A stretch of DNA of 27,959 nt, from the IMG/VR virus record IMGVR_UViG_3300030060_006557, positions 1 to 27,959 of that record; one strand, written 5' to 3'. The stretch's first letter is position 1; each line of letters starts with the position of its first letter. The stretch is from a virus. A program made the translations under genes and the position numbers. Shown in pieces: positions 2,566-22,400 of this stretch. The notes below the pieces were generated by a model, which saw only the letters and a program-made list of their open reading frames with translations, made no database searches and was not told the origin of the DNA.

Positions 2566-3038
2566 TGGCAATTAAAGATTTATCAAGAAAACCTTTTATT
2601 GAAGACAACGATACTAATGTTAGAATTGGTATTGATTTACCAATTCGTAAAGGAAATGATATTGATGGATATTTTGCGTCAACCTCAACAACTATAGAAG
2701 CTGTAAAAAACAACATAAGAAATTTATTATTTACAAATCAAGGTGAAAGATTATTCCAACCAAACATTGGGACTAAATTGAGGAATTATTTATTCAGTCA
2801 AATAACAGAGGGAGTTCTTGTTCAAATCCAAGAAGAAGTAATAACTATTTTTAAATTTTGGTTACCTTTTGTTGAGGTTAAAAATATAGAAGTTAAAACT
2901 AATGACGCTTTTAATAGAGTTTCTTTGAGTATTTTATTTAATATAAAACAAGACCCAAACACATTAGATTCAATTACATTAAATTTTTCAAATGATAATA
3001 ATGATGAATCTACTGGTGTTAACAATGGAGGAAGATGA
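2565..3038 (+). CDS. 25: Baseplate wedge protein, gp25/GPW family
   Basis: This 157-residue protein belongs to the gp25/GPW family, the small conserved wedge component that joins the sheath-initiating part of the baseplate to gp6. The diagnostic core is visible: after the segment TTIEAVKNNIRNLLF comes TNQGERLFQPNIGTKL, which matches the family pattern of a helix leading into a GER-x(3)-P-x-x-G loop. A helix with hydrophobic spacing (VLVQIQEEVITIFKFW) and two terminal strands (VKNIEVKT, VSLSILFNIK) complete the fold. The length fits the family (T4 gp25 is 132 residues) with an extra Asn/Asp-rich tail. It overlaps the genes on both sides, and its SD is GAGGA (2551-2555). The neighbouring gp6 gene is the expected partner. 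Confidence 0.95.
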   Translation: MAIKDLSRKPFIEDNDTNVRIGIDLPIRKGNDIDGYFASTSTTIEAVKNNIRNLLFTNQGERLFQPNIGTKLRNYLFSQITEGVLVQIQEEVITIFKFWLPFVEVKNIEVKTNDAFNRVSLSILFNIKQDPNTLDSITLNFSNDNNDESTGVNNGGR

Positions 3039-5272
3039 TGCCAACATATGGTGAAAACGAATTTAAAGAATCAAATGTAAATTATATAAATAAAGATTTT
3101 AATGCGTTAAAACAATCTTTAATTAGTTACGCACAATCTTATTTTCCAAACACATATAAAGATTTTAATGAAACATCACCTGGTATGATGTTAATAGAAA
3201 TGAATGCGTATGTTGGAGATGTATTGTCGTTTTATATAGACCAACAATATAAAGAAATGTTATTACCATTAGCAGAAGAAAGAAGAAACATAATCAATAT
3301 GGCTAAAATGTTAGGATACAAGGTAAAACCAATAGTACCGGCATTCACTGAGTTGTCTTTTAAATCTGAAATAAATGCACAATCAGCAGATAGGTCAAAA
3401 GTAGATTATACTAACGCTAGTGTTTTTTCTGAGGGTATAAAAGTTAAGTCTACAGCGAACACAAATTTATTTTTTGAAACTTTAGATGTTGTTGACTTTA
3501 CGGTTGAACAAGCGGATGATATAACTTCACCAGTGATAGATACTGATACTGATGGACTAATAACAGACTATACATTGACAAGAAAAATAAGAGCTGTAAG
3601 TGGTGAAACTAAAACAAAAGACTTTACCATTACAGCACCTGAAAAATTTAAAAAAATAACTTTACCTGAAACAAATGTTATTGATATTATTTCGTGTATT
3701 GATTCAAATAATAATGAATGGTATGAAGTTGACTTTCTTGCACAAGACCAAGTACCTGTTAAAAAACACTATTCACAAGATGCAGCTAGAGATTCAGCTT
3801 ACACAAACTTTGATGGGAGTTCTTATGTATCTGATGTTCCAGTTCCATATTCTTTACAATATATTAAAACAACAAAAAGATTTACTCGTGAAACAAATAA
3901 TGATAATACGACTTCATTGGTTTTTGGAAATGGTATATTAAAAAATGGAACAATTGTTGGTGAAAATTTCTTAGATTTAGAACAATTAGGTATTATCATA
4001 CCCGGTCAAACTAATGATTTAAATGAAGCTATCGACCCATTATTGGGTGATGAGTATTCAACATTGGGTGAAACCCCAAGTCAAACAACTTTAACAATTA
4101 CTTATCGTGTAGGTGGTGGAATTGAATCTAATGCTTCGGTTGGTGATTTAACACAAGTAGTCGGAACACCAGTGAAGTTGAAAGATGGTGGAACTAATAT
4201 TGATAGTGTTACTAATGACATAGGTGCTAGAGGTGGTGCAGACAAAGAAGACACTGATGAAATAAGAGAAAAAGCTAAAGCTTTCTTCACTACACAAAAT
4301 AGATGTGTAACGAAAGAAGATTATGAAGCTAGAGTATTGAATATGACATCAAGGTTTGGAAGTATTGCGAAAGTAGTTGTGTCAAGAAATGAAGTTCCAC
4401 CAGCGACAGATATTCAAGAAGCGTATGAATCAGCAATCCAGCCTCAAATTACTGATATATCTGAAAATAGAAGACAAACTTACGAGAATTTAAGAGACCT
4501 AACAGATGAACTGTTGGGTTCGGGAGAATATCTTGCAGATGTTGTAGATGCCATCTCTGCAGAAATTAATTTTAATCTTGGAACTGCTGGAACAATACAA
4601 ACTGGATTAAATACTTTATCTGCTGCTCCTTTTATAGATTCATTGGATGCTGATTTTGGAACTATAAATGTAACAATTTTATCATATGATAGAAATAAAA
4701 ATTTAGTAGGTAATCCCCAAGCTGGTACAGCATTTTTACCAGACGCTACTGATAATACACCTGATATATTAAATGCAAATTTATCAAATTATTTAAACAA
4801 CTTTAAATTATTAACAGATGATGTTGCAATTTCAGATGGATACATTGTAAACTTTGGTGTTATCTTTGATGTAGTAGCTCACCAATATGCAAACAAACAA
4901 GAAGTTAAATTAAAATGCATACAAAAAATTATAGATTATTTCAAGATTGAAAAAATGCAATTCAATCAACCTATTTTATTGAGTCAATTAGAATATGAGT
5001 TAATGGGTATAGATGGTGTGAGAGCTGTAAATTATGTATGTGTTACACAAGATATTGATTATGTAGGTGCTGGAGAGGGATTCACTCCAGGTTTATTTAA
5101 ATATACTTATGATGGTAGTACATTAACCGAAGATGGTACAGATGGTTATGGGTATTCATATGATTTCCAAACCGCCTTAAGAGATGGAATTATATTACCA
5201 GTGAATCCAGATAACCCAGCTGTATTTGAATTAAAAAATCCAAGACAAAATGTAAAGGGGGTAGTTAGATAA
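3035..5272 (+). CDS. 6: Baseplate wedge protein gp6 (baseplate J-like)
   Basis: A 745-residue protein resembling T4 gp6/baseplate J, which forms the ring-like core of the wedge. The N-terminus (YINKDFNALKQSLISYA, then FNETSPGMMLIEMNAYVGD and an ERRNIINMAKMLGYK segment) is typical of gp6-type proteins. The J-domain signature lies near residues 395-445, with GGADKEDTDEIREKAKAFF followed by TQNRCVTKEDYEARVL. A second half with J-like strands ends near DGVRAVNYVCVT. Two ATG codons occur in tandem at 3035 and 3038. GGAGG at 3027-3031 is only three bases from the first and six from the second, so 3038 (reading MPTYGENEF) may be the true start. The gene overlaps the end of the gp25 gene. An Asp-rich loop, DTDTDGLITDYT, near residue 168 resembles a calcium loop but lacks an acidic residue at the final position. 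Confidence 0.95.
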   Translation: MMPTYGENEFKESNVNYINKDFNALKQSLISYAQSYFPNTYKDFNETSPGMMLIEMNAYVGDVLSFYIDQQYKEMLLPLAEERRNIINMAKMLGYKVKPIVPAFTELSFKSEINAQSADRSKVDYTNASVFSEGIKVKSTANTNLFFETLDVVDFTVEQADDITSPVIDTDTDGLITDYTLTRKIRAVSGETKTKDFTITAPEKFKKITLPETNVIDIISCIDSNNNEWYEVDFLAQDQVPVKKHYSQDAARDSAYTNFDGSSYVSDVPVPYSLQYIKTTKRFTRETNNDNTTSLVFGNGILKNGTIVGENFLDLEQLGIIIPGQTNDLNEAIDPLLGDEYSTLGETPSQTTLTITYRVGGGIESNASVGDLTQVVGTPVKLKDGGTNIDSVTNDIGARGGADKEDTDEIREKAKAFFTTQNRCVTKEDYEARVLNMTSRFGSIAKVVVSRNEVPPATDIQEAYESAIQPQITDISENRRQTYENLRDLTDELLGSGEYLADVVDAISAEINFNLGTAGTIQTGLNTLSAAPFIDSLDADFGTINVTILSYDRNKNLVGNPQAGTAFLPDATDNTPDILNANLSNYLNNFKLLTDDVAISDGYIVNFGVIFDVVAHQYANKQEVKLKCIQKIIDYFKIEKMQFNQPILLSQLEYELMGIDGVRAVNYVCVTQDIDYVGAGEGFTPGLFKYTYDGSTLTEDGTDGYGYSYDFQTALRDGIILPVNPDNPAVFELKNPRQNVKGVVR

Positions 5273-6369: not shown

Positions 6370-8016
6370 ATGGTTACATTAGAACAAGTATTAGATAAGT
6401 TAGCTGATTATTTAATAAATCAAGATGCAATAAATACACCTACAGTTCGTGCTAATCAAAAAACAATCAGAAATGGACTTATAAGTATAGCACGAGATAA
6501 TTCTGAAAAATTAATTTTATTTGAAACAGATAGAGAAGCTAACGAAGAAGACCTTTTAGGTTCACAAAATGATTTAAGTTTACAACAAATAGTTGATTTA
6601 ATAAATGATGTCGGTGCAGTAATTGATAATGTTATGTTCCATTCTGATTTTGATACCAGTGGAGAAGTTGCATTATTGGTAGACCTTGAAATAGAATTTC
6701 TTGGTAATTTTTACACAATAACTGATATAATTAGAAACGACCAAAACAATCCAATTAATTTAAGTCAATTTATGAATCTTCAACAATTCACACAAAACAT
6801 TGATGTGGGATTAGCGGAAGAATATTTAGATACAACGATATTTGAATTATTGCCTGGTACACAAGGAAGACAAGAAAGAATAATTAACTTCTTTAATGAG
6901 TTCACAAATTTAATCGGAGAAGCACCTGATTTTCAAATCAATGCAGATGGATTAGTTGGTGAAGAATTTGACCCACTTGAATATAGTGAGTTCCACGATA
7001 TATCAGCCACTTATACAACACCCGATTATGGAATACCAACGGAAGAATCTTTTATAACAAGATTAAATAATACAGCTCAAGGTGATGACTTTAATGAGGG
7101 TAAAACTTTACAATCTATGCGAGATACTTTAAACACTTATTTAGTGGATGTAGATGAAGAACTTCCAGGTCAAGATGATGAAAGACCAGAATACATTAAT
7201 CAATCAAGTGGATATTTAAAGTTTAGAAATTTAAATCAAGGTATTATAATTAGAAATACAGATAATCCATTTTTAGATAATTTAAATCCAGAATCAAGAG
7301 AGTTTTTAGAAACAGGATTTACAATCACAATGTGGGTTAGATTTTTAGATAAATCATCTCAAGGAACATTGTTTAATTTTGGTAATCCTTTTAGAAAAGA
7401 TAATCCATTAGGTTTTAGTTTAGAAACTTATGTTATTAAAAGAGATTCAATACCAGCCAGAGCTGGTTTAGGTTTTGGTTCTACTTCCAACAATACTTGG
7501 GGTGATATATTTCAAGATGGTGGTGGTGTAGGTGGTTATGATTTTGAAGCACCAAGTGAGGGATTTTTTAGTGAAGATAATGCGGAACGATTTGTAAGAT
7601 TAGTTGTAAGAGAAAATGATGATAGATTAAGGGGTTCTCATTTTGGTTTACCATTTATGAATAGAAGACCGGGCGTACCACAACTTGGTTCAGCGGATTT
7701 TTATCAAGATGCAATAGCTGAAGGAAATGAGCCAACCGCACCATTTGACCACGAGTTTGGATTAATGACCAATACGAGAGTTCCTATTGATTACTCTGAA
7801 TGGTATTTCATTTGTGCTACTTACAATCCTTCTATAGAGGAAGAGACATCTCTTGAAGGAGCAACATATACGACATTCAAAAACAATTCAGATTTTTGGA
7901 AAAACAGAGTTAAAACAGATGGTAGTTATACACATTATTCTGGATTGGGAAGTAGATGTAAAGTGGAAGTTATATCAAAAACAGATTTATTAAGAGCAAG
8001 AGGATTTGAAGTTTAA
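6370..8016 (+). CDS. Baseplate/tail protein with LamG (concanavalin-like) domain
   Basis: A 548-residue acidic protein. The N-terminal region of about 270 residues (starting MVTLEQVLDKLADYLINQDA) is mostly helical, not a domain I can name, and probably anchors to the baseplate. Residues about 280-490 look like a LamG/concanavalin A-like sandwich: YLKFRNLNQGIIIRNTDNPF, then the hallmark TGFTITMWVRFLDKSSQGT leading to LFNFGNP, and later the matching strand DYSEWYFICATYNPS. A Gly-rich loop (FQDGGGVGGYDFE) sits inside the domain. The last 55 residues include KVEVISKTDLLRARGFEV. The start is well supported by AGAGGAG (6356-6362). The LamG fold binds glycans or proteins in many surface adhesins, so a peripheral baseplate or short-fibre role is inferred. 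Confidence 0.8.
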   Translation: MVTLEQVLDKLADYLINQDAINTPTVRANQKTIRNGLISIARDNSEKLILFETDREANEEDLLGSQNDLSLQQIVDLINDVGAVIDNVMFHSDFDTSGEVALLVDLEIEFLGNFYTITDIIRNDQNNPINLSQFMNLQQFTQNIDVGLAEEYLDTTIFELLPGTQGRQERIINFFNEFTNLIGEAPDFQINADGLVGEEFDPLEYSEFHDISATYTTPDYGIPTEESFITRLNNTAQGDDFNEGKTLQSMRDTLNTYLVDVDEELPGQDDERPEYINQSSGYLKFRNLNQGIIIRNTDNPFLDNLNPESREFLETGFTITMWVRFLDKSSQGTLFNFGNPFRKDNPLGFSLETYVIKRDSIPARAGLGFGSTSNNTWGDIFQDGGGVGGYDFEAPSEGFFSEDNAERFVRLVVRENDDRLRGSHFGLPFMNRRPGVPQLGSADFYQDAIAEGNEPTAPFDHEFGLMTNTRVPIDYSEWYFICATYNPSIEEETSLEGATYTTFKNNSDFWKNRVKTDGSYTHYSGLGSRCKVEVISKTDLLRARGFEV

Positions 8017-8018
8017 AA

Positions 8019-11000
8019 ATGGCTGTTGAAGATAAAAAAATTCAAGACATAAATCCTGATTTACTACAAAAGGATGAGGTAATTGATGGAATGGATGATA
8101 CCACTCCACCTCCACCAAGTGACCCTGATGGTGGTGATGGTGGTGATGATGGTGGTGAGTCTGAACAAAATTTATTTAATTTAACTCAACAGCCTAATGG
8201 TATAATACTCGAACAATCATTTGGTTATCCTTTATTTTCAATTGAAAATCAGTATACTTATCAATATAATACATCTATGCAAGTCATACAACGAACCACT
8301 AATAATCCCAATGTTGAAACCATAAAGTATTCCACAGATTTGGCATCAACAATATCAAATAATATTTATGAATTAACTTTTGATATTAAATTATTACAAC
8401 AACCTGACACTTTAGGAACTGAATCTAAAATTGAATTTCAAACCACTATTGATAATAGTGTTGGTGTAACCTTTTTTGAATTACCATATGATGAATTAAT
8501 AAATTTAAATTCAAGTGGTGGTGAGTACACAACCTTTACAACTCAATACACAGCTACTTTAAGTGGTGAATCCATATTACAAATAAAAGCTGATGAAGTT
8601 ATGTTTCAAATTCAAAACATTAAAGTCATTAATAGAGGTGAAGAAATACCCGAAGACGAAATTTTAGATGATGGTGGTTCAACTGCAAACCCATACATTA
8701 GGGCTTGTTTATGTAATACATATAATGTAGGTCAATCGAATGGTAGTTTTGAAGAAGATTTTAGAAGTTATTTAGCTGCCGATTCAGACCTTTTTTATTC
8801 ATTTGGATGGAGCTACACGGAGTATGATACATCTACTATTCCTGAAGGTGTATATCCATCAAATTGTATTGGATTAGACTACATTCGAAACATTACTGAC
8901 TCAAAATATCCAAACATACCGACTGAGTATAAAGTTTTACACGATGTAAATCTTTGTATTTTTGGTGGAATGGAATTAGATACTGACAAACAAAATTTAC
9001 TTGGTTTTACTTGGCAAGATTTTACTGAAAAGAATTTATTTGATGTAAATGGATTGGAAGAGTGGAGAGGTCAAACGGATGTAATTCAAGTTACAACTGA
9101 TGGTGAATTACAAATGGACCCGCATGATATTGGTGATATTATGGATGATGGGGTATCTAAAATAATTTACTTTAATAAAAATGGTGCGGGCAATGGTAGA
9201 GTTGGAGAATCAGACAATGGACAAGCTCAAAGAGGAATTTTATATTATAAATTAAATCAAACAAAAACAGATATATATCATCCCCCATTAATTCGAACTG
9301 TAGGATTTGATAGAGAAGATACATATAAAAGTTATGGTAATTCTTTTAACCAAGAGCAACCTCCAAGAGGTCTTGGTGACCAATATGGTGATTATGATGA
9401 ATATCCAGACCCAAATAAAAGATGGGTTTCAACCGCTGACACGAGTGAAAGAATTTATCCAATATATGAAGACTTGAATTATTTTGAAGATGTACCTGTA
9501 CATTTCATGGCTGATAATCCTCCTGATGATAATCATGATGATGGTGAAATGGTTTATCCTGGAAAATGTCCACCACAATATCAAGGTGAACAAGACCCAT
9601 CGGGTAAATTTGGAGCACAGACATTAAGTGGTTTTGGACCAATAATGTGTAGTTTTAATCACTTTGAAGAACATTTTCAAAATTGGTTAAATGGTAACAA
9701 CGCAGATGGACCTCCTGATTCAAACGAATTTCCAAAAATAAAACCAAGTAATCCATCAGGTGAAGTTAATATCTCTGTAAATCCAGACCAAAACAATGTT
9801 CCATATCCAATAGTTGCAAATTTTCCAGGTTCTGTATTATCAGAAACTGAAGGTAATAATACATTTACAGAAATAAAAAATAAATTTGAATCTCTAATCG
9901 GTACACCTGTTTATAGAAAATATGTAATAGTTAAAATTAAAAGTGAATACAAACAGGATTTCTCTCAAGTTTCTGTTGAATTACCAGATGAACAAATTAT
10001 ATCAATAGATTTAGATGTAGCGGGTGATGTGAATCAAAGAGTTGACATCACTGATGTAATTCCAATTAACTTCCAAGAGACAGATGATTTTGAACTTCAT
10101 TTAGATTATAAAGAACAATATGGTAATATATTGTTTACACCAAATGAAGCTGATTTTGAAAAAACATCTGAAATTAAATACAAAATAGAGCATATATTTT
10201 TGGATACTCTATCTCATATGGAAGCTTACGGAACAGAAGAACAAATAGAGTTATATCAAACACTTATGACTAATAATTTTATGGGTCATCCAACTGCAGT
10301 TAGTGGAAACCAAGAACCAGAAACAGTATTTTATAATGGTGTTGCAACTGATTATTTAGAAAACGCCTTATATCTTGACGGATATGATGGAATTAAAATT
10401 TATAATTATGGTAATCTTTTTGAACAAATTTTTGGTTTGGGATTACCATATGGTGGTGAAAACAATTCAATGACAGATGAAATAGGTCAGAACCATGCTC
10501 GTTTTCAGTGGATTCAACAAGGACCAGAGACTCCAGGTTCAGAAGCTAATGATGCTGGCCAAATGAGATTTGATGATTTCTCTTATTTCCCTAACAAATT
10601 TTTTGCTTGGGAGTTTGATGAACAAACATATCAAGGTGAAATGAGTAATGTAGAGCTACCAAAAGAATATGCTTTTTATTGGCGGGATTATTTTCCTACT
10701 TATCCAAGCACCTTTCTCGAAGAAAGAACAGCTTGGGCATATAGTAATCCTCCAAGTGAATTTGGAGCTACAAATACTGGGCCATCTTTAAAAGTTGATA
10801 TGCGAAATGACTCAGGATATATTGGTACAACTCCAAGTGACTTAATGAACTTTTCACACCCACCTTGGCCTGATATGCATGTGCATGGATATGAACAAAA
10901 TGGTTTAAGTGATTACCATCCAATTTTTAATGGAAACATATTAGATACATTTAATGGTAGTTTTTCTAATAATCTTGAACTAAAAATATTTATCACGGGT

Positions 11001-14000
11001 ACGATTCAATTCAGTGGTGAATTTGGAGTGCCTGGTTTTGATGTGGATTTAAATCCATCATTGGATTCATCATATGACCCATATAGTGGAATTGATTTAA
11101 GACCTTTTAAAGTTGATACTAATATATGTCGACACATTGAATTAATGAGAGGAATAGCAGCGTCAGCAGGCAGTGGTGGTGCTGGTTTAGGTGATGGTGT
11201 GTTTTATGAAGCAAAAGATTTTATATATGGAGGTAACTTTGGTAACCAATATGATGACCAACTTCAAAATTTAAATGAAATTACATGTGAAACTGTATTC
11301 CAACATTCTTTATATAGAATTACAAGGATGAGAGCGAGATGTGGTGATGGTTCAACGGTTTTAATGGGTGATACATATGAAGGTGATTATTTGAATTATC
11401 CATTTAGAAAAACTGACAATTCAGAAACTACTGCAGATTCAAACGACTTCTTTCACTTTTCAGGTGTTGATGCTTGTAAGTATGCTTCTAATCATATAAG
11501 AAGTTATCCAAACAATAAACAATTTCACATCGGTGGTGATTTTGATAGAAGACCATCATTGGGTTTATTTTATTATGAAGAAGATAATCGAGCTAGTGAA
11601 AACTTTACTTTAGATGCTGGTGATGAATTTGTACAATATCCTCTTACTAATTTTATAATTAATCCTGGTGGAGATATTGTTGAAACACTTGATACAACGG
11701 ATTATAATGGAGATTCAAGTGATTCATATTATCCAATAGGATGGACTGATGACCCTGGTTTAGAACGAGCTTATCTTAATTTTAATGGTTATCAAAACAT
11801 TGACGACTATGATTATGACAGATTTCTTCAATCACCTGGATTTAGTTCAAGCTCTCAAAAAGCACTCGGTTTTTATAGATTTGTGGGATGGGAAAAATAT
11901 CCACAATCAAATGATGAAGTTGGAGATTATTACTTATCATCTGGAATGAATGCAAGATGGATTTTTGAGCTCACTGATTATGATTATACTGTGGATAGAG
12001 ATGAAAGAGAAACTTCAGTTACAGTGGAATTAAGAATTGGAAACCATCAAGGTGAAGATGAGTATGGTGATAACTATCCAACATCACAATGTCATTCAGT
12101 CAATCCAACAATTACAACTACCGATGAGTATGGTGATACACAGACAAGCTTTAATAATCTGTCAATAGTTATAACCAATGAAGAGCCAGGAATATCGGAT
12201 TTAGTTGACTATACTGAAGCAGTTAATGACGCTCAGGCCAAAGCTATAAACATTGCACTTGATGAATGGGGTAGGTCAACTACTGGTTGTCGTATACAGG
12301 TTGAATCATCCACTGTAAACTATTCCAATGTAGAGAATATACGGACAGATTATATGACCGGCAAACATCCAAGATGTCATTCTGGAGGAAAGTGTTTAAA
12401 TTTCAACGCTAATCCAACAATGCTTGAACAAACAAAAACAGAAACTGGAACATATGCACCTTACTTGTATTTAAATCAATATCAAAAACTATTGACTAGT
12501 GCTGAAGCCACAGATTTATTTTATCAAGACATACAATCAATGCCTAGATTGAAAGTAAGTTTTTGGATGTTGACTGACTCTGAAGGAGTTGCAGATATTG
12601 AGAATCCTGAATATCCAGAAATAGAGGTTGCGGTAACTCGTGGGAATCCTGACTTACAATCTAGCTATTATCGTGTGAAAACTGAAGGAGTATCACACAA
12701 CTCATTATCATATCCACAATCAATTGCAACATCGGGTAGATTTAAAAACACAGTATTGGATGAGTGGGAAAGGTTTGAATATAGTTTTGATTTAGAATAT
12801 AAAGAATTTTTTAAAGAATCTAATAGAACATATGAAAAGATATTCTTTACTGTTCAATACTCTGGAGTTAAGTTACTTGATATAGATGCAGCAAATCCTG
12901 ATGATAGATATGAAGTAATTCAAGGTAATGTTTATCTTGATGATTTCTCTGTAGCGGAAACTGGTGAATTTATTCCTGATGTTGATGTTAGGTCTAAAAA
13001 AGGTGAAGGTGATTATGGTGTTGGTGATTTAATGAAATATTATGACCCATTAATAGATACTGAAGAATACAATGACACAACTGCTCCATTGGAAGCACAA
13101 TTTTATTTTTATCCAAGAACTTTTGTAGACCAAGTTTTTGATAGAGAGGATTTAATTGAAGAGCCATACACCACTACAAAATTAAGACATAGGTTTGGTA
13201 CTGAGGGTACATTTACAGATGAAATACTTGGTAATGATTTTAGAAGAGGTAGGTTTTATTTATATGATGTAGATTTTGGAGATGGTTCACCAAAAGAATT
13301 TAAAGAACCACTAAGGTTAGGAAACAATGTGGCAGTTTATCATACATATACAAAATCAGGTATTTATGAAATCACTGGTTATATGTTAAGAACAAAACCA
13401 GAAAGAGATGATGATGGAAAACCAAACCACGACATATCAATTGGAACAATACATAATAAAAAATTTACAATTAGAATAAATGTTAATGAAGGATTGGATG
13501 AAGATTTTCAATACTTTGGTTCTGAAAATGGATTTTCATATTTACCTTTTAAAACCACAACACCTGTAGTTGGAGGAGTTTCAAGAGAGAGTTCTTATTA
13601 CAAAACAATTAAAAGACAACTTGGATTTGTTGGTAATGAATGTAGACAAGTTGAGTTTTCATTAAGGTCACAAAATGGTGGTAACGACCAATATTATCTT
13701 GCACAAGATTATCCATACTTTGATGATGATGTTATTCCAAACTTCAATGGTGATTTATCAAACATTGATTGTGATTTTGATTTTTATTCCATAGTTGGTG
13801 GAGATACACCAGACAATATTAGTGATGTATCTTATATAAGAGCTCTTTGTAGTGATGGGACTTATGCATTAATTGGAGATGCTAATCCATTAGATACTGG
13901 TAATGGGAGATATGTGGAGATGGAAGATTATGATGAAGATGAAGGAAACTATGGAGACTTCTTTCATTTAACAGGTAATGAGGCTTGTGGAGCTACAAGA

Positions 14001-17000
14001 ACATCAATATACTTTGAAAAACAAAGTGACAAATTAAAAACAGAATTAGCTTTAACAAAATTAGATGACTTTTTCAAAAATGATTTAGAAATACTACCAG
14101 CATTTCAAAAAGTAAGAACAGATATAGATGATAATATAATATACAATGGATTATCACCAAGTGAAGAAGAACTTGGAAAAAATTTAGGAAATGTGGATTT
14201 AACCAGCATAAGATATTTTAACAAACCAAAAGAAATATATCAAATGTTAGGATTCACTTGTGATAATGGTAATCTTGGTATTGATTTAATCCCATTAGGA
14301 AAACCAGAGTATGGAATTAATTATACAAATCATTCAACTGGACTTGTTGAATTGAACTTAGAAGTACCATCACCTATATCTACATTTTCAACTAAAGTTT
14401 ATAATGTTAATAATATTGATTCAAATACAATAAGATTTGGTCATCATTTTTTAGTCACTGATGCATTTGGAGTTGGTGCTGGAGATTGGTTTTACAATGA
14501 TGGTAGTATAACGGGTAATAGTGGTTTTGATAATCCTCAATTAGGAATTGGTGAAAGTGGTGATGGTCAAGATTACACATTTTCAACTCATATATATGTT
14601 CCTTATGGTAGATGTTCAGATGGAAGACCTTGTTCAGAGACAGATGAAAATGAGGGTGAAACTGTTGCATGTGATGATTGTGGTGGTAGTGAAAGTTTTA
14701 TGGATGGTAATTTTACCATACGATACTTACAAAATCAATTTGATTCAGATATTGGAATAGGTGTAAATGATTGGGCTCATGATGTTTGGTATGATGATAT
14801 TGATGACCCATCAACTCGAAGATGGTCAAATGTACATCAACTACCAACATCAGAAACAGCTGGTGATAAAACATCTTTTAAATACAAAGAATTTGATGTT
14901 TACAATCATTGTCATCCATTAGGTGATATGAATCCAAGAGGTAGATTTAATTGGAATAGTTATCCATTTCCTATAAGAACAGAAGGTTATTGTAATAATT
15001 TATCACAACAACAATGTAGACTTGAACAAATGGGTGAAGGTTGTGTTTACATATCGAATGAATGTCAACCTGCGGTGTTGGAAAACAATGAAACTTGTTG
15101 GTCAGCTCTTACTGAAGACCAATGCGATGGTAATTGTTATTGGTATGGTGAAGGTTCAGATAACTCTGTTTATGCACCAATTGAATATGAATTTGATTCT
15201 ACACAATATGGAGAGTTGTATGATAAATGGACAAGAGTTGTTATTCCATTTACTGCATTGAATCCAAAACAATATGGTAATTTACTTACCATTAGAATAG
15301 GTACACCATATGGACGCAGTGATGCAGTAGATATGGTGGATTATGGACCTGAGTTAGTAACTCAAGGTGATTTTTTTACAAATGAAGAATATTATTTAAC
15401 GGATGATGACTATTTAGCCACTTTACCTTTTCCAAATTGTTGGGAAAAATTTGACCGAAATGGTGATTTTAGGCTCAATACATTAGATGGAGTTCAATGG
15501 GCTAATGATGGTAGAGCTTTTGATATAGGAGAACATATACAGTCAGAAATCGTCCCAAATGGATGGCCTGGACAAGTTGATGTAGCTGGTGGATATTGTG
15601 ACAATACAGTACATGGAGTTATTGGTGTTTCTAATTCAACAGGTGGTTGTGGTTATAAAAGAGCCACTTCACCGCCAGAACCTTTCGATAATTGTAATTT
15701 GTTTGCAACAGGTTTTGGTGTGAGTGTGGATACTTCACAAATATTTACACCATTGGAATGTTGTCGATTAGCTAATTCCTTTGTCTCTGTAGATTATGCA
15801 AGAGAATGTGTAAATCAAGTTTCAGATAGTTACACATCGTATGAGTGTCTATCATATTCCGATGAAGAAAATACCATTGATTCATTATCTTTTAATGGAG
15901 ATTATACTGTTTATACTAATCCTTATATGAATGGTATTGTTAATTGGACACTTGAAGGTGATGCGGTAGTTGATAATAATGAACTTACTTTATCACCATA
16001 TCCAAATCCATCTGCAGTTTCTCAAGTGCATGGAAGTAGTACATCATCTTTTAATAAAAAATATCTTTTAACATTTGAAATAACTGCTGTAGAAAATATT
16101 ATAGGTGGTGAGACTGAGTTAAAATTAGTTGGTGGTGGTGATAATTATACATTGGATAATATTGATATTATAGGTAGTCAATCCACAGGTAACATTGAGG
16201 TTGGAGTACAAGAATTTATATTCACAAGTGACAATAATGTTCAAAATGGTGATGATGATGGTAATGACCCTCCTCCTGATTTGGGTGGAGATAATAATGG
16301 TGGTGGAAGAGATGAAACGGATGAAGCTACATTAACTGAATATGATTATTTAAGAACATTAAAAATAAGTACTTTTAATTATAATGATGAATATGTTGGT
16401 TTTATAAAAATAGACAACATATCATTAAAAGAAATAACTGATGAATACCAAGAAGACATCAGTGGTGTTCAATACAATGATGGTGTGTATGTATGGGGTT
16501 CACAACTTTTAGTTGGACATTATACAGAAGAAAATATAATTCCTTATACAACTTTAGATTTAGACCCAGATGATTGTGTAGATTTTCAAGCTGGTAATCC
16601 ATCAAATCCAAGATATTGGGAAAACATCATACCACAAGATTATGATATAAAAAACAGAGACCCATTGGGAACAGAACAAGATTGGTTAGATGATGATGGA
16701 GATGGACAGCCTGATTATTACTATCCTGTATTACCAAAGTATGGTAGAAATGGAACATTTGAATCTGCTAATAATCAATTCTATCCTGGTGGTGATTATG
16801 ATTATCCAAATAATAAAATACCTTTTCCAATTGATGCTATAGTTACGGAAGAAGTTGTTCAAGAGGAATCAATGTTAATAAATATTTACAATGATAAGTT
16901 GGAAAATAATGTATACTCGGATGGTTCTGGTAATGATAATAACGCGTTTGTAATAAATGATTATAAACCAAAATATAATGAGGAAACATCAGAACCTCAA

Positions 17001-17054
17001 TCTATAAAAAATGTTGATAGAATAAGAACATCTAAACGAAATGGAGCGTTTTAA
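8019..17054 (+). CDS. Giant modular adhesin-like tail fibre / receptor-binding protein (3011 aa)
   Basis: One uninterrupted 3011-residue frame. Approximate order: residues 30-48 acidic Gly/Pro linker; 50-210 jelly-roll (CBM4_9-like, ending MFQIQNIKVINRG); 1085-1160 Cys/DFFH module A; 1510-1647 jelly-roll ending NVYLDDFSVAE; 1690-1830 PKD-like (YDVDFGDGSPKEF, then VYHTYTKSGIYEITGYML); 1915-1998 Cys/DFFH module B; 2198-2224 Cys cluster; 2322-2378 tandem Cys motifs; 2478-2499 dockerin-like loop; 2623-2805 jelly-roll ending FIKIDNISLKEI; 2890-2900 TSP3-like loop. Residues about 270-1080 contain beta-rich sequence I cannot assign. I count about 40 cysteines, unusual for a phage fibre. There is no signal peptide or membrane segment. 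The start follows the previous stop by two bases; the nearest SD (AAGAGGA, 7998-8003) is distant, so initiation may depend on coupling. Baseplate genes upstream support a fibre role. It lacks the long helical pattern of a tape measure. Confidence 0.85.
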   Translation: MAVEDKKIQDINPDLLQKDEVIDGMDDTTPPPPSDPDGGDGGDDGGESEQNLFNLTQQPNGIILEQSFGYPLFSIENQYTYQYNTSMQVIQRTTNNPNVETIKYSTDLASTISNNIYELTFDIKLLQQPDTLGTESKIEFQTTIDNSVGVTFFELPYDELINLNSSGGEYTTFTTQYTATLSGESILQIKADEVMFQIQNIKVINRGEEIPEDEILDDGGSTANPYIRACLCNTYNVGQSNGSFEEDFRSYLAADSDLFYSFGWSYTEYDTSTIPEGVYPSNCIGLDYIRNITDSKYPNIPTEYKVLHDVNLCIFGGMELDTDKQNLLGFTWQDFTEKNLFDVNGLEEWRGQTDVIQVTTDGELQMDPHDIGDIMDDGVSKIIYFNKNGAGNGRVGESDNGQAQRGILYYKLNQTKTDIYHPPLIRTVGFDREDTYKSYGNSFNQEQPPRGLGDQYGDYDEYPDPNKRWVSTADTSERIYPIYEDLNYFEDVPVHFMADNPPDDNHDDGEMVYPGKCPPQYQGEQDPSGKFGAQTLSGFGPIMCSFNHFEEHFQNWLNGNNADGPPDSNEFPKIKPSNPSGEVNISVNPDQNNVPYPIVANFPGSVLSETEGNNTFTEIKNKFESLIGTPVYRKYVIVKIKSEYKQDFSQVSVELPDEQIISIDLDVAGDVNQRVDITDVIPINFQETDDFELHLDYKEQYGNILFTPNEADFEKTSEIKYKIEHIFLDTLSHMEAYGTEEQIELYQTLMTNNFMGHPTAVSGNQEPETVFYNGVATDYLENALYLDGYDGIKIYNYGNLFEQIFGLGLPYGGENNSMTDEIGQNHARFQWIQQGPETPGSEANDAGQMRFDDFSYFPNKFFAWEFDEQTYQGEMSNVELPKEYAFYWRDYFPTYPSTFLEERTAWAYSNPPSEFGATNTGPSLKVDMRNDSGYIGTTPSDLMNFSHPPWPDMHVHGYEQNGLSDYHPIFNGNILDTFNGSFSNNLELKIFITGTIQFSGEFGVPGFDVDLNPSLDSSYDPYSGIDLRPFKVDTNICRHIELMRGIAASAGSGGAGLGDGVFYEAKDFIYGGNFGNQYDDQLQNLNEITCETVFQHSLYRITRMRARCGDGSTVLMGDTYEGDYLNYPFRKTDNSETTADSNDFFHFSGVDACKYASNHIRSYPNNKQFHIGGDFDRRPSLGLFYYEEDNRASENFTLDAGDEFVQYPLTNFIINPGGDIVETLDTTDYNGDSSDSYYPIGWTDDPGLERAYLNFNGYQNIDDYDYDRFLQSPGFSSSSQKALGFYRFVGWEKYPQSNDEVGDYYLSSGMNARWIFELTDYDYTVDRDERETSVTVELRIGNHQGEDEYGDNYPTSQCHSVNPTITTTDEYGDTQTSFNNLSIVITNEEPGISDLVDYTEAVNDAQAKAINIALDEWGRSTTGCRIQVESSTVNYSNVENIRTDYMTGKHPRCHSGGKCLNFNANPTMLEQTKTETGTYAPYLYLNQYQKLLTSAEATDLFYQDIQSMPRLKVSFWMLTDSEGVADIENPEYPEIEVAVTRGNPDLQSSYYRVKTEGVSHNSLSYPQSIATSGRFKNTVLDEWERFEYSFDLEYKEFFKESNRTYEKIFFTVQYSGVKLLDIDAANPDDRYEVIQGNVYLDDFSVAETGEFIPDVDVRSKKGEGDYGVGDLMKYYDPLIDTEEYNDTTAPLEAQFYFYPRTFVDQVFDREDLIEEPYTTTKLRHRFGTEGTFTDEILGNDFRRGRFYLYDVDFGDGSPKEFKEPLRLGNNVAVYHTYTKSGIYEITGYMLRTKPERDDDGKPNHDISIGTIHNKKFTIRINVNEGLDEDFQYFGSENGFSYLPFKTTTPVVGGVSRESSYYKTIKRQLGFVGNECRQVEFSLRSQNGGNDQYYLAQDYPYFDDDVIPNFNGDLSNIDCDFDFYSIVGGDTPDNISDVSYIRALCSDGTYALIGDANPLDTGNGRYVEMEDYDEDEGNYGDFFHLTGNEACGATRTSIYFEKQSDKLKTELALTKLDDFFKNDLEILPAFQKVRTDIDDNIIYNGLSPSEEELGKNLGNVDLTSIRYFNKPKEIYQMLGFTCDNGNLGIDLIPLGKPEYGINYTNHSTGLVELNLEVPSPISTFSTKVYNVNNIDSNTIRFGHHFLVTDAFGVGAGDWFYNDGSITGNSGFDNPQLGIGESGDGQDYTFSTHIYVPYGRCSDGRPCSETDENEGETVACDDCGGSESFMDGNFTIRYLQNQFDSDIGIGVNDWAHDVWYDDIDDPSTRRWSNVHQLPTSETAGDKTSFKYKEFDVYNHCHPLGDMNPRGRFNWNSYPFPIRTEGYCNNLSQQQCRLEQMGEGCVYISNECQPAVLENNETCWSALTEDQCDGNCYWYGEGSDNSVYAPIEYEFDSTQYGELYDKWTRVVIPFTALNPKQYGNLLTIRIGTPYGRSDAVDMVDYGPELVTQGDFFTNEEYYLTDDDYLATLPFPNCWEKFDRNGDFRLNTLDGVQWANDGRAFDIGEHIQSEIVPNGWPGQVDVAGGYCDNTVHGVIGVSNSTGGCGYKRATSPPEPFDNCNLFATGFGVSVDTSQIFTPLECCRLANSFVSVDYARECVNQVSDSYTSYECLSYSDEENTIDSLSFNGDYTVYTNPYMNGIVNWTLEGDAVVDNNELTLSPYPNPSAVSQVHGSSTSSFNKKYLLTFEITAVENIIGGETELKLVGGGDNYTLDNIDIIGSQSTGNIEVGVQEFIFTSDNNVQNGDDDGNDPPPDLGGDNNGGGRDETDEATLTEYDYLRTLKISTFNYNDEYVGFIKIDNISLKEITDEYQEDISGVQYNDGVYVWGSQLLVGHYTEENIIPYTTLDLDPDDCVDFQAGNPSNPRYWENIIPQDYDIKNRDPLGTEQDWLDDDGDGQPDYYYPVLPKYGRNGTFESANNQFYPGGDYDYPNNKIPFPIDAIVTEEVVQEESMLINIYNDKLENNVYSDGSGNDNNAFVINDYKPKYNEETSEPQSIKNVDRIRTSKRNGAF
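8127..8158 (+). repeat. GGTGAT-type microsatellite encoding an Asp-Gly linker
   Basis: A short run of GATGGTGGT units near the 5' end of the giant gene encodes DGGDGGDDGG, preceded by four prolines. It forms a flexible acidic linker before the first jelly-roll module and could be prone to length change by slippage. Confidence 0.7.
11275..11500 (+). repeat. Cys/DFFH module, copy A
   Basis: Within the giant protein, residues about 1086-1160 show TCETVFQHSLYRITRMRARC, then CGDGSTVLMGD, and after a variable acidic loop DFFHFSGVDACKYAS. Copy B at 13761-14013 has the same three cysteines, the C-[SG]-DG-[ST]-x(2)-L-[IM]-GD core and the DFFH-x(2)-G-x(2)-AC ending. I do not know a named domain with this pattern. 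It is a protein-level repeat; the DNA has diverged. Confidence 0.7.
13083..14263 (+). repeat. PKD-containing module shared with the downstream 808-aa protein
   Basis: Residues about 1689-2081 of the giant protein. Landmarks in order are APLEAQFYFYPRTF, FYLYDVDFGDGSPKEF, VYHTYTKSGIYEITGYML, TTPVVGGVSRESSYYKTI and VDLTSIRYFNKPKEIYQML. The same landmarks, diverged, occur in the same order at 18432-19140 in the next gene. Here the copy has an extra insertion carrying Cys/DFFH module B (13761-14013). PKD domains are Ig-like folds common in bacterial surface and polysaccharide-binding proteins. Confidence 0.75.
13761..14013 (+). repeat. Cys/DFFH module, copy B
   Basis: Residues about 1915-1998 of the giant protein: CDFDF, then SYIRALCSDGTYALIGD, a variable acidic loop and GDFFHLTGNEACGATRTSIY. 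It matches copy A at 11275-11500 in cysteine order and in the DFFH ending. It lies as an insertion inside the module shared with the downstream paralogue, which lacks it, suggesting that it was added after the duplication or lost from the smaller gene. Confidence 0.7.
14983..15155 (+). repeat. Tandem Cys motifs resembling PSI/plexin repeats
   Basis: Two adjacent Cys units in the giant protein (residues about 2322-2378). The first reads YCNNLSQQQC followed by GEGCVYISNECQ. The second reads TCWSALTEDQCDGNCYWYG. Both follow C-x(n)-L-[ST]-x(2)-QC-x(n)-G-x-C-[VY]-[YW], like the short disulphide-rich PSI-type motifs of extracellular proteins. The resemblance is by pattern only. Confidence 0.55.
15449..15514 (+). 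other. Dockerin-like calcium-binding loop
   Basis: Residues about 2478-2499 of the giant protein read FDRNGDFRLNTLDGVQWAND. The acidic spacing D-x-N-x-D-x(3)-N-x(2)-D matches the type I dockerin/EF-hand-like loop, and the following residues could form its short helix. True dockerins carry two such loops; I find only one clear copy here, so a full cohesin-binding dockerin is not claimed. Confidence 0.5.
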
Positions 17055-19480
17055 TGTCTAAAAAAATTCAATTCGAAAATTTTCCAACTACTGGCAAACG
17101 AGGTCAGTATTTTTACTATGATGATGAAGCTCCTGAATCTCTTATGGTTAGTGATGGGTTACCCATTGGTTTGGATAAATTTAATAATTCATCTCTTTAC
17201 TCAACCGTACAAGAACATGAATTAAATAAAAAAATGCTTAACTATGGTTTGGGGCCGAGAGGCCAATCTACATTTAGAATAGAATTACTTGATATTGCAA
17301 ACACTGGTGTATCTCGTAAAACCGCTAGTACAAGATGTAGAATTTGGGTATTTGATGATGTTCGTTGGAAAGAATATAGAGAAGACCTTACTGAAAATGC
17401 TGGACAAGGTGAAGGTACCGCTCTTATGCCTGAAGAATTAGATTACTCTGATTTACATAAAGCCTTAACAACAGAAACCATACGAATTGGTGGCCTTTTT
17501 GGAAAAACTATAAAGTATCGAAATGGTAGATTCGCAACATGGATGACTAAAAAAATGAGAGACGATGCTGAAGAGGCGGAAGAGTCGAGAGAAATACCTG
17601 CCATAGGAGCTAGATTGTATACACGGGGATTTGGAACTATTAAAGAAGGTAGAGGGTTAGGTCCAATTATAAAAGATGGAACAATTTTTGGAGCTTTAAA
17701 CGCTAATGAAATACCTTGTGAACTTGATAGTAGAGGTAACATATCTGACCAATATAGTACTGAATATGCTTTCCGTGAAAGAGGAGAAGATGAAAATATT
17801 TTCAGAACCACAGACCAGTATTTGTATATTGTTGTTTATTTACAAGGTAATGGACAAGTTAAATATTTTAAAGATAAAAAAAGAGATAGAAAATATGAAA
17901 TTTATAAAATACCAACATTACAATTTTTTGAAAGTGATGGAGACCCTACTGAATTTCAAGGTTCAATTCAACCTATAAAAGTTACAAGAGGTGGTGGTAA
18001 AGGTAATACAAGAGCACCTGCATTTAAAGTAAATGACTTAACATTGTATGTTAATACCTTAACAGGTGTTGAACAGACTTTTCCAGATGAAGCTGGTACT
18101 ATTCACACATTCACTGATAATGATGGAGAAACTCAAACGATTAATAACTACAATGCAGCTGAGGCCGAAACTTTAAGAGATTCAATAAATGAACCTGTTT
18201 TTATGAATCTTAGAAATGTGGATAAAGAATTTAGATTTCAATCACCAGACAAATATATTAGGTATTCCAATAGCCTTAGACATTATTATACGGGTGAAGG
18301 TGGAAGTACTTTTGATGATGGAATACAATTAAATTTTGAACCTGTAGCGATTGTTAATGTTTTAGGTAATGATAATTATGATTTATCCGCTTACCAACAA
18401 GATACAATTGGTAGACAAATTTGTTCTGCACCAAACCAAGTTGAATTGGGTTTTTATATTTCTAAACATTTTGATAGTGGTAATAATGAGTTAACAAAAA
18501 CTGATGGTTTTGGATTACAAACAGAAGTAGATTCCGACAATGATGGAGTAAATAATTATAAAACAGGAGAAAATTATAAATTTTATGTTTTAGATTGGAA
18601 TGATAAAGATAATAAATTTGAAAATTCAGAAGATTATTTAAATGACATTCCACAATCGGATGTTGAAATGCTTGAAAAACAACAAAATAATTTATACAAA
18701 TTTACTTCATTGGGTGATACATTAACACATAGTTATTCCACTTCTGGTTTAAAAGTAATAAAAGCTTTAATGTTTTCTCATACTAAGTATTATGAAAAAG
18801 CACAAACTGTAAGATGGAAATTCATAGAGACAAGAATTTATTTAGATATTCCGATTGGTAAGTTTCCTGATTTTGGTGAATTAGGTGGTGGTGATTACAC
18901 GACAATACCTTGGCCATATACAACACCTATAATTGGTGGAACATCCGAAAATTCACAATATAAATTAAGTGTACAAAATACTTTGGCTGGTGGTAAATTA
19001 TCCGAACAAGAAGTTTCAGATATAAGATTTTTAACTGAAGCAAAGGAAAATGATGAATTAGGACAAACAATACAAAAAATGGATTTAGAACAAGTTAGAT
19101 ATTTTAATACTAGTTATGATATAGATGATTTGTTAAATATATCTCATGATGGAGAAGAAAATGTATATTTTTATGATAATTTTAGTTATTGGCATTGTGG
19201 GGATTGGGATAGTGAAAGAAGTAGATGTTTTCCAGAGGAAAGTTCAGTCGGACAGATATTTATAGATGACAATTTAGATTTAAAATTAAAAGAAAATTGT
19301 AAATTAGAATTAAACACTGGTGAGTTAGATGGTAAATCTTTAAGTGATACTAATGGAAATACTAACAAAGGTGTATTGATTGGGGATTATAAGATTAAAA
19401 AAAGACAAAAGGATATTCCTATGAGAAGAGATTCTTTTATAAAATTTCCTAAAAAAGGAAATGAAAATGGGGCTTTATAA
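17054..19480 (+). CDS. Structural protein with PKD-like module, partial paralogue of the giant adhesin
   Basis: An 808-residue protein. Residues 1-450 are not a domain I can name; they include a basic-acidic stretch (TWMTKKMRDDAEEAEESREI) and beta-rich sequence. Residues about 460-695 parallel the PKD-containing module of the giant protein: VELGFYISKHF, YKFYVLDWNDKDNKFEN in place of YDVDFGDGS, LTHSYSTSGLKVIKALMFSH, TTPIIGGTSENSQYKLSV and MDLEQVRYFNTSYDIDDLL. The last 65 residues also match the giant's C-terminus (LIGDYKIKK versus VINDYKPKY, final NGAL versus NGAF). A DSDNDGVNN stretch near residue 495 resembles a thrombospondin-3-like calcium loop. The start shares one base with the giant's stop, behind GGAG (17043-17046). 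The two probably share an attachment surface or assemble in the same fibre, which is inference from the common C-terminus. Confidence 0.8.
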   Translation: MSKKIQFENFPTTGKRGQYFYYDDEAPESLMVSDGLPIGLDKFNNSSLYSTVQEHELNKKMLNYGLGPRGQSTFRIELLDIANTGVSRKTASTRCRIWVFDDVRWKEYREDLTENAGQGEGTALMPEELDYSDLHKALTTETIRIGGLFGKTIKYRNGRFATWMTKKMRDDAEEAEESREIPAIGARLYTRGFGTIKEGRGLGPIIKDGTIFGALNANEIPCELDSRGNISDQYSTEYAFRERGEDENIFRTTDQYLYIVVYLQGNGQVKYFKDKKRDRKYEIYKIPTLQFFESDGDPTEFQGSIQPIKVTRGGGKGNTRAPAFKVNDLTLYVNTLTGVEQTFPDEAGTIHTFTDNDGETQTINNYNAAEAETLRDSINEPVFMNLRNVDKEFRFQSPDKYIRYSNSLRHYYTGEGGSTFDDGIQLNFEPVAIVNVLGNDNYDLSAYQQDTIGRQICSAPNQVELGFYISKHFDSGNNELTKTDGFGLQTEVDSDNDGVNNYKTGENYKFYVLDWNDKDNKFENSEDYLNDIPQSDVEMLEKQQNNLYKFTSLGDTLTHSYSTSGLKVIKALMFSHTKYYEKAQTVRWKFIETRIYLDIPIGKFPDFGELGGGDYTTIPWPYTTPIIGGTSENSQYKLSVQNTLAGGKLSEQEVSDIRFLTEAKENDELGQTIQKMDLEQVRYFNTSYDIDDLLNISHDGEENVYFYDNFSYWHCGDWDSERSRCFPEESSVGQIFIDDNLDLKLKENCKLELNTGELDGKSLSDTNGNTNKGVLIGDYKIKKRQKDIPMRRDSFIKFPKKGNENGAL
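18432..19140 (+). repeat. PKD-like module, copy matching the giant adhesin
   Basis: Residues about 460-695, the second copy of the module at 13083-14263. Order and landmarks are conserved (SxSG or TKSG strand, then TTP-[IV]-[IV]-GG, then [IV]-RYFN), but the Cys/DFFH insertion is absent and the DFGDG turn has become DWNDKD. Confidence 0.7.
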
Positions 19481-19483
19481 TAA

Positions 19484-22400
19484 ATGGCTGATTTAGAAAA
19501 TAATTTTAATAGTAATGATTTTAGTTTAATTTCACCTGAAGGTAATACAGATGGAACTTTTGGTAATCAACGCGATTATTTAAGATTAATTGTAAGAAAC
19601 CAAAATGGTGACATTGTCTTTTATCCTAAAGTTGAATCTGATGGTAGTGTTACAAATCAAGAAGCTATATTTTATTCAACCGTTCCATCAGCTTATACTT
19701 ATGATGATGGTGCTGTAGATGTACCATCTTATTTTAAAATACAAACACCAGGAATTGTTGATGGTGCAGAAAATCGTGACATTACATTCGAAGATGGAAA
19801 TCTACAATTTCAAACTTATGTAAATGATTTAACACAAGAAATATATGTAAAACCAAATGAAATATTATCAAGTTCTCGAATAGCTGAAGGTAATTATGAA
19901 TTACAATTTGATTTTTTAAATCAATTCCCAATATCACCTGAGGGTGTAGATATACAACATCAAGAATCTGTAGATAGATTTATAATTAAAGAAATATCAC
20001 CTTCACGAAAAGAAGTCAGAATAAAATTATTAGATTTAAACATAAATGAAACTAATACTGAAACAGATATAAAAAATAATATTTTTAATATTTTAGGTTC
20101 ACCATATGAATTTAATCATGTATTGAACATTGGGCTTGGTAGACATATACCGATTACAAATTATGTATTTGATAAAGTTTCAACTGGTGATACTAATCAA
20201 TCTCTTGTTTTAAAACTTTATGAACCATTACCAAATAATGTAAGCACTTTACAACTTATAACAATAGAAAAAGAAGTCCTTGTAACACAGACTCAAGACA
20301 TATATTATTTTTCTGAAGTCACTGAGGTTGTGTATGGTCCAGGCTTAACTCCTGATACTTATTACAATTTACCAGAACAAGAAGAGTTTGTTGATTTTCA
20401 AAACTTTGACCAATTAACATCATCATTATCAACTGAAGTTATAAATAGTGTTTATACTGGTAGTACTTTTGATTATCCAAATGTAAACACAGATTTCAAC
20501 GAATTTGAAAACCATACATTCTTTGGTTCTGCAAAAACAAAATTAGAAAATTTTAGAAAAAAAGTTCAAACCATTCAATCAAATTTAAGTATAATATCAA
20601 GTTCATTAACTGGTAGTACAGCTAAAATACAATCAACAGAAGAGGCGACAGATTCAAATGACTTAATTGAATTGAGAAATACATCATTTGATAAAATGCA
20701 ACAAGAAATAGATTCATTTACACCTTATGAAAGATTTTTATATTATGATGGACAAAGTAGAACAACTGCTTCAGCTCCTGGTTTGGGTGAAAACTATGTT
20801 GGTACTTACGCTATAAATAAAGATTTAAGGGTGGGTGATTTTGTAGTCAAAACCAATGAGTCAAGATACTATTCAAAATACTCAGGATTACCAAACACAT
20901 ATAGAATCACACAATCAGCCACACACAATGATGATATTACATTTATAACTTTAAACAAATATAGAGTTGAGGATAAACCATTTTTTAATTATAGTGGTTC
21001 AGTTTATCTTTCATTTGTTGCTAAAGGTGATTTTGGTACAAATAGAGCTTATAGTCAATTAATACTTGAAGGTAGTGTGGCAGACCATGCACTAACCGAA
21101 GCTGCCGTACCAGGAAATACAAGATTTTCAGATATTATTTTAGGAAAATCAACAAGAGCTCTTGGTCAATCTAATGCTACTCCAATGACATCCAGTCTAT
21201 ACAAAAGATATATTTTTGAAGCCTCATCATCACATTGGACACCAAGTAGTGTTGTTGATTTTGATACTGGTAACATTGGAGATTTTAATGCAACTACAAC
21301 TGAAGTAACACCTTTACACACACATATAAAAACAGGTTCGACTCCAATACAAGTTGATGGTCGTTACCAACATTTATCTACCGTGACAACTGGAAGTGGG
21401 GTGTTGTTCAGTGGTTCTGTTATGCCGGCTGGAGATTTGTTTAGATTGTATATACCAGGAAGTGGTGCTAATGGTACAGCTGTTTCTTCATCTTTTATTT
21501 CTGATATTAAGGTAACTTTAAAAAATCCAACAAATGTTCAACCATTCGGACAACTACCTCATACAAGTTCAACGGATTGGACAAATTGGTATAATGGAAT
21601 GCTTGACTCTGCTTCTGCTTTTGATACTGATAACATACATTCATTGGAAAACAATTTACCAACTTATATTCAAGAAAGTTTAGAATATGATGATGTGAAA
21701 CAATTTTTGTCAATGACAGGTGAACAATTTGATTTAATTAGAAATCATATTGATGCCTATACTAATTTTCACAATCGTGATTACGATAAATTAGAATCTG
21801 TTCCTCCAAACTTAATACCTATGATATTAAGTAATTTGGGTTGGGATTCCATCATTCCATTTTCAAGTAGTATGGCTAGTTATTTTGGACCATATTTATC
21901 ATCAGTTGTTAATGAGTCTGATATATCACAAAACACTTCAAGAAAAGTTTTAAATAATTTAATATATCTTTACAAATCAAAAGGAACAAAAAATTCAATA
22001 AGGGGATTATTAAACACATATGGTTATCCACCTGATGTGTTAACTATGAATGAATTTGGTGGTTCAAATGAACCTCAAAATGGTGTTGCAGTTACTTCTT
22101 CAAATCCAACCATTGGTACTACAACTAATGAAACTAATTTAAGAACAACACCTGGTAATATATCATTCACTACACGACAACATAAATTTTATCATTATAA
22201 TGTAAATAAAAAATCAGATAGAAATTTAAATTTAGATTGGTGGATGGATAACGCTAATGCAAACACAATTCAATTTGTTTACAAACATAAAAAACCAACT
22301 TTAAATCAAACAATATTAAAATCAAGTGGTAGTGGTAATGAAACACTTTGGGATTTAAGATTAAAACCAAGTGCTAATGCGTTAAGTTCATCGTTTGAAT

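Follow-up and report, generated by a model that had tools for sequence, protein, structure and literature searches.

The open reading frame at 8019-17054 of the window (the whole stretch of DNA analysed here, a virus record of 27,959 bases and no part of a bacterial genome) encodes a member of a family, not described before, of very large mosaic proteins, probably host-binding, whose genes adjoin the baseplate genes of uncultured ocean phages and which are put together from shuffled sugar-binding-like, PKD-like, Cys-rich and calcium-loop modules. Its product is probably a giant, modular, multi-ligand host-surface adhesin that would be attached to the contractile-tail baseplate of a marine phage, with the C-terminal half as the likely anchor. 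This reading follows from its fixed place between two partner genes, p548 and p808, in a gp25-gp6 wedge operon; from predicted domain folds that are typical of carbohydrate or protein binding; from modular growth of the family by N-terminal addition and internal insertion; from the fast evolution of the N-terminal part; from the filling of the same slot in sister phages by unrelated large proteins; and from the precedent of baseplate proteins carrying carbohydrate-binding modules in the phages Deep-Blue and Vp4 (PMC11406892).

The frame lies on the plus strand, starts with ATG and runs for 3011 codons with zero internal stops; the GC content of the DNA around it is 31%, and a stop-free frame of 9 kb is not expected by chance. 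The single open frame of about 9 kb claimed in a preliminary description of this DNA is therefore confirmed as an intact gene, and both its sequence and its position are conserved in 79 related loci. The same description placed the gene directly after baseplate genes. Genes for gp25- and gp6-like wedge proteins do lie upstream, but two further genes, encoding a DNRLRE/CBM96-like protein and p548, intervene (see table). The DNRLRE/CBM96-like gene is strongly conserved and has homologues in the cultured cousins Mel-JY01 and immuto. Downstream, the start of p808 overlaps the end of the giant gene by 1 nt, and it is followed by p1700, with homologues in Mel-JY01, immuto and LR756508. By eye, the C-terminus of p548 and residues ~930-1190 of p1700 are LamG/ConA-lectin-like, in both cases without a library match.

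Features of the window and of the 3011-residue protein, with the evidence for each
Feature	Residues	Position in window	Strand	Evidence or remark
gp25-like baseplate wedge gene		2565..3038	+	Pfam GPW_gp25 E 8.6e-10 (over cut-off); PHROG baseplate wedge E 7e-21
gp6-like baseplate wedge gene		3035..5272	+	PHROG 219 (baseplate wedge) E 4e-24; 970 deposited phages matched
DNRLRE/CBM96-like protein, 364 aa		5272..6366	+	NCBIfam DNRLRE E 7e-14 and Pfam CBM96 E 1e-7, both over cut-off
p548, partner gene upstream of giant gene		6370..8016	+	adjoins giant gene in 77 loci
Giant gene, probable modular adhesin, 3011 aa		8019..17054	+	uninterrupted ORF, conserved family
Acidic Pro/Gly-rich linker	1-50	8019..8168	+	missing in several relatives
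Predicted jelly-roll domain	51-221	8169..8681	+	AF2 pLDDT mostly 60-80; VIA-align against Eph ligand-binding and MAM jelly-rolls
Lineage-specific block	226-1044	8694..11150	+	close relatives only; no family match, no confident fold
'GEFGVPGFDVDLNPSLDSSYDPYSGIDLR'	~1000-1035	11016..11123	+	equivalent of the N-terminus of short family members
Three-Cys module, copy 1	1058-1203	11190..11627	+	HMM repeat
Predicted CBM4/MAM-like jelly-roll	1448-1700	12360..13118	+	AF2 pLDDT 52-91 in most blocks, 38-44 in one loop
PKD-like core	1739-1873	13233..13637	+	most conserved module of the family; common to p808
Three-Cys module, copy 2	1888-1993	13680..13997	+	HMM repeat
Conserved hinge/linker module	1994-2083	13998..14267	+	HMM dissection, alignment
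Cys-rich stretch	2331-2660	15009..15998	+	14 Cys
EF-hand/dockerin-like cassette	2464-2507	15408..15539	+	family HMM; degenerate loop in window copy
Conserved C-terminal region	2859-3011	16593..17051	+	ends in tail motif '...DYKP...NGAF'
p808, smaller paralogue with PKD-like core, hinge and C-terminal tail		17054..19480	+	hhalign (profile-profile) E 1.2e-10, probability 97%
p1700, candidate P2 gpI-like wedge protein; downstream border of gene cassette		19484..24586	+	weak Tail_P2_I and TIGR02242 matches

Searches of viral contigs returned 80 loci with gp6 and 62 with the PKD-like core; among the loci examined, the giant-protein family was present in 79 marine viral loci, a count to which a single contig may contribute overlapping loci, one from each search, and its members range from 1058 to 3693 aa. 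The gene p548 is immediately upstream of the giant gene in 77 of the 79, while p808 was seen after it in 60, usually with the 1-nt overlap, and is present in every giant-gene locus whose contig reaches that far. The search of viral metagenomes for co-occurrence with gp25/gp6 that had been proposed as a check thus found the gene at a fixed position beside them in 60 or more relatives. Neither the giant protein nor p548 or p808 has a detectable relative among 50,697 deposited phages, and a narrow profile of the PKD-like core (two sequences) found no relative in bacterial and archaeal genomes. The best deposited matches of gp6 are Microcystis phage Mel-JY01, uncultured phage LR756508 and the Flavobacterium immuto phages. 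The gene order in Mel-JY01 and immuto is gp25, gp6, the CBM96-like gene, one small unrelated gene (413 or 112 aa) and the p1700 homologue; these cultured cousins thus have the wedge operon but lack p548, the giant gene and p808, which makes this trio a gene cassette that the marine clade has gained within that operon. Divergent sister loci have other large proteins in the slot behind p548, often Cys-rich and with no detectable similarity to the giant protein, one of which has a sub-threshold dockerin match.

Some of the Cys-rich proteins filling the slot in the sister-clade loci L055, L061-L064, L066 and L070 carry 'C.G.C.GD' repeats. In the giant protein of L126:280-6600, residues ~67-230 make up a Hint/intein-like self-processing domain (PT-HINT E 1.3e-9, over the Pfam cut-off), and the giant proteins of L135 and L143 have N-termini similar in sequence to that of L126. 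An extra repetitive fibre-like gene ('MADLTNKVISSNFQKLLQ...') is found between gp6 and the CBM96-like gene in L015:9090-15116, L027:5163-8981, L018 and L110.

The module map was derived by HMM dissection of the giant protein and its relatives; scans of the whole 3011-aa protein gave nothing over cut-off in Pfam, PHROG or NCBIfam. AlphaFold2 models were poor overall owing to shallow alignments (mean pLDDT 35 for residues 50-1205 with 6 sequences, and 46 for residues 1448-2640 with 20); the usable parts are the jelly-rolls, the PKD-like core and one small beta domain. Of all the modules, only the N-terminal jelly-roll, the CBM4/MAM-like jelly-roll and the PKD-like core have fold support, and about half of the protein is without a confident model. 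Residues ~50-210 form a predicted jelly-roll in a model of moderate confidence (VIA-align Z up to 12.7, rmsd 2.9 over 141). A second model of moderate confidence, for residues ~1448-1650, is a jelly-roll beta-sandwich (Z 8.4, rmsd 3.1 over 120) with Z scores of 8.4 against meprin MAM, 8.1 against the gingipain K1 adhesin domain and 7.9 against CBM4-2. Both are predicted folds of MAM/CBM4/K1 adhesin type, which as such do not imply a ligand. The best Foldseek rows, Eph receptors and picornavirus capsids, were rejected as kin; they reflect a common jelly-roll shape and not relationship.

The PKD-like core is below the Pfam gathering cut-offs of PF00801 and PF18911 (14.8 and 13.9 bits against 27 and 23.5), and the match of one relative, L098, is 17.3 bits. 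The profile of the giant-protein family matches the solved PKD domain 4xed with E 0.0095; furthermore, the motif WGDGS...HTY..G.. is near-invariant in 18 relatives and the strands are predicted at high pLDDT. The jelly-roll and PKD-like modules named in the preliminary description are therefore upheld, the former at two places and the latter by the 4xed match, though sub-cut-off in Pfam. Its Cys-rich modules are likewise evident in the Cys-rich stretch and the two copies of the three-Cys module; the protein has 40 Cys in all (1.3%, compared to 0-0.8% in its neighbours). A jacalin-like identity for the three-Cys module, suggested by eye, was dropped, as the best match of its profile to solved structures had E 0.17.

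Short members of the family begin with 'FGVPGV.IEQTL..YDPYSGIDL', equivalent to residues ~1000-1035 of the window protein, so that the first ~1000 residues are an N-terminal addition. Residues 1205-1445 gave no matches in the HMM dissection. In the alignment, copy 2 of the three-Cys module is a clean insertion between the PKD-like core and the hinge; the window, L011 and L058 have it, whereas L005, L031 and others lack it. Beyond the hinge, residues 2090-2858 form a variable region that holds the Cys-rich stretch and the EF-hand-like cassette. The giant protein and p808 have both the core and the hinge in common, and their tails are related, reading '...SGN.N.GF...DYKP......NGAF' in the former and '...SGNSNKGLLIGDYK......NGAL' in the latter; it is mainly on this common tail that C-terminal anchoring is proposed. 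Alternatively, the C-terminal half could have been conserved for a function other than anchoring.

Divergence is much faster in the N-terminal third than in the neighbouring genes. In the nearest relative, L002, the genes from gp25 to p548 are 97-100% identical to those of the window, with dN of 0.001-0.017 for gp5-like to p548, whereas dN over residues 51-1000 is 0.07-0.28. As dS is also raised in most segments of residues 51-1000 (0.11-0.46 compared to 0.01-0.20 in the neighbours), recombination contributes to this divergence, and positive selection is not claimed. Across 250 pairs of relatives with a median gp6 identity of 70%, median identity is 61% for the PKD-like core, 32% for the part before it and 38% between the core and the last 150 residues, with large length differences. 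Within the same operon, gp6 has a dS of 0.009 against L002 and the adjacent gp25 one of 0.20, a contrast that suggests recent recombination inside the wedge operon.

The EF-hand-like cassette is about 43 residues long, with the consensus 'YLxTLPFPxYFEEFDIxxDGxxxxxDxxxWxxxGRPDIAxxI'. Counting non-redundant copies, the giant proteins have 37, p808 has 27 and p1700 has 14; the cassette is absent from the remaining genes in the loci and the two long contigs that were examined, and tblastn of the consensus in deposited phages gave weak partial matches only. Pairwise alignments of p808 and of p1700 with and without the cassette show insertion between conserved flanks. EF-hand_1 is matched by 15 of 31 copies (best E 1.9e-4) and Dockerin_1 by 13 of 31; the window copy has no Pfam match, and the A6 profile matches calcium-binding proteins with E 4e-7. 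The DxNxDGxIxxxD loop resembles those of EF-hands and type I dockerins, but dockerins have two calcium-binding loop-helix repeats whereas the cassette has a single loop in its own LPFP...GRPDI frame. Since the cassette is shuffled among the adjacent genes for the giant protein, p808 and p1700, it might be a shared docking or calcium-dependent assembly module, by which interchangeable, cellulosome-like adhesin complexes anchored by their C-termini would form on the baseplate; we regard this as improbable. The sharing of putative calcium loops by three neighbouring genes, together with the core common to p808 and the occurrence of PKD/Ig-like modules in decoration proteins (PMC11821841), would also suit a mainly structural baseplate or whisker component (at the periphery, as a cross-link or as decoration), with extra modules for stability or particle attachment and not for host recognition. 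Ligand binding better explains why the parts outside the core diverge so strongly and swap modules, and the structural role is considered unlikely.

The preliminary description proposed a multi-glycan-binding fibre. Much of this stands: the protein is modular, probably glycan-binding, encoded next to baseplate genes and fast-diversifying. The name tail fibre is not supported in that form. As with T4-type long tail fibres and the PHROG fibre families, the gene is next to baseplate genes and its product probably contacts the host; its large size, its fast-evolving N-terminal third and the lack of another fibre within the 28-kb window would further suit the main receptor-binding long tail fibre. 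However, no PHROG family, tail-fibre families included, is matched at E <= 0.1, and a 69-kb relative with the same gene cassette (G001) encodes separate tail fibres of 2044 and 1184 aa, 16-30 kb downstream, that match PHROG tail fiber with E down to 3e-31. Conservation is also reversed relative to a fibre with a conserved N-terminal attachment and a variable C-terminal tip, for here the conserved core and tail are C-terminal and the N-terminus is variable. The constant presence of p808 where the contig reaches, and the other repetitive fibre-like gene of some relatives, also speak against a main fibre. Such a role therefore seems rather doubtful, and the giant protein is probably an extra baseplate adhesin and not the classical tail fibre of the phage.

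An enzyme, such as a polysaccharide depolymerase, was earlier thought possible in residues 270-1080. The block at 226-1044 is well conserved among close relatives, with its Cys, His and Trp kept, but it has no match in Pfam, PHROG or NCBIfam and no confident fold, is absent from most of the family and is mostly a lineage-specific N-terminal addition before the usual start of the protein; an enzyme here is highly improbable. A tape-measure or internal protein was rejected, the confident parts being beta-sandwiches rather than long helices and the gene lying in the wedge operon. A search for the host with a phage-borne gene of G001 turned up only a phage of its own type, misbinned in a Pelagibacter MAG, and no host is assigned from it: the Candidatus Pelagibacter MAG contig L157 (NZIO01000021.1) has ~80% identity over 3 kb to G001 and in all likelihood is a piece of phage DNA binned there by mistake.

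The extra adhesin would be carried on the virion, at the rim of the baseplate and next to gp25, gp6 and p1700 of the wedge. Its conserved C-terminal half, made up of the CBM4/MAM-like jelly-roll, the PKD-like core, the hinge and the p808-related tail, would serve as the likely anchor and spacer, a polarity that would place this half towards the particle. Exchangeable binding modules, namely jelly-rolls, three-Cys modules, the Cys-rich stretch and the EF-hand-like cassette, would be added ahead of the C-terminal half and inserted between hinge and C-terminus. By touching glycans of the host or of particles, these modules may improve adsorption in addition to the separate tail fibres, although jelly-roll and PKD-like folds, themselves predictions here, do not prove sugar binding.

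The closest known systems are the CBM-bearing baseplate proteins Gp111, Gp186, Gp119 and Gp120 of the Bacillus myophages Deep-Blue and Vp4, and Gp106 of A511; one of the Deep-Blue and Vp4 proteins decorates host cells (PMC11406892). These too are large proteins of the contractile-tail baseplate region in which several CBM4-type jelly-rolls are added to the wedge; they are believed to bind host polysaccharides besides separate RBPs, and PKD-like domains also occur in that tail (PMC11406892). The ocean family is not detectably homologous to them by the searches used (no deposited-phage match), and differs in its PKD-hinge-tail core, paralogous p808, three-Cys modules, EF-hand-like cassettes and lengths of up to 3693 aa. 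The PKD/BACON Ig-like adhesins of gut Bacteroidota phages and T4 Hoc (PMC13370021) are similarly modular, PKD-like, adhesive and usually encoded near structural genes, but they bind mucus or epithelium, whereas the giant gene is fixed in a wedge operon, its PKD match is weak and its remaining modules differ.

With this analysis the family gains a name, giant baseplate adhesins of an uncultured marine phage clade, together with a module map and a search profile. It shows contractile-tail phages probably enlarging their host contact by cassettes added to the wedge operon, and offers a concrete case in which one small module, a putative calcium loop, has moved among three structural genes that lie side by side.
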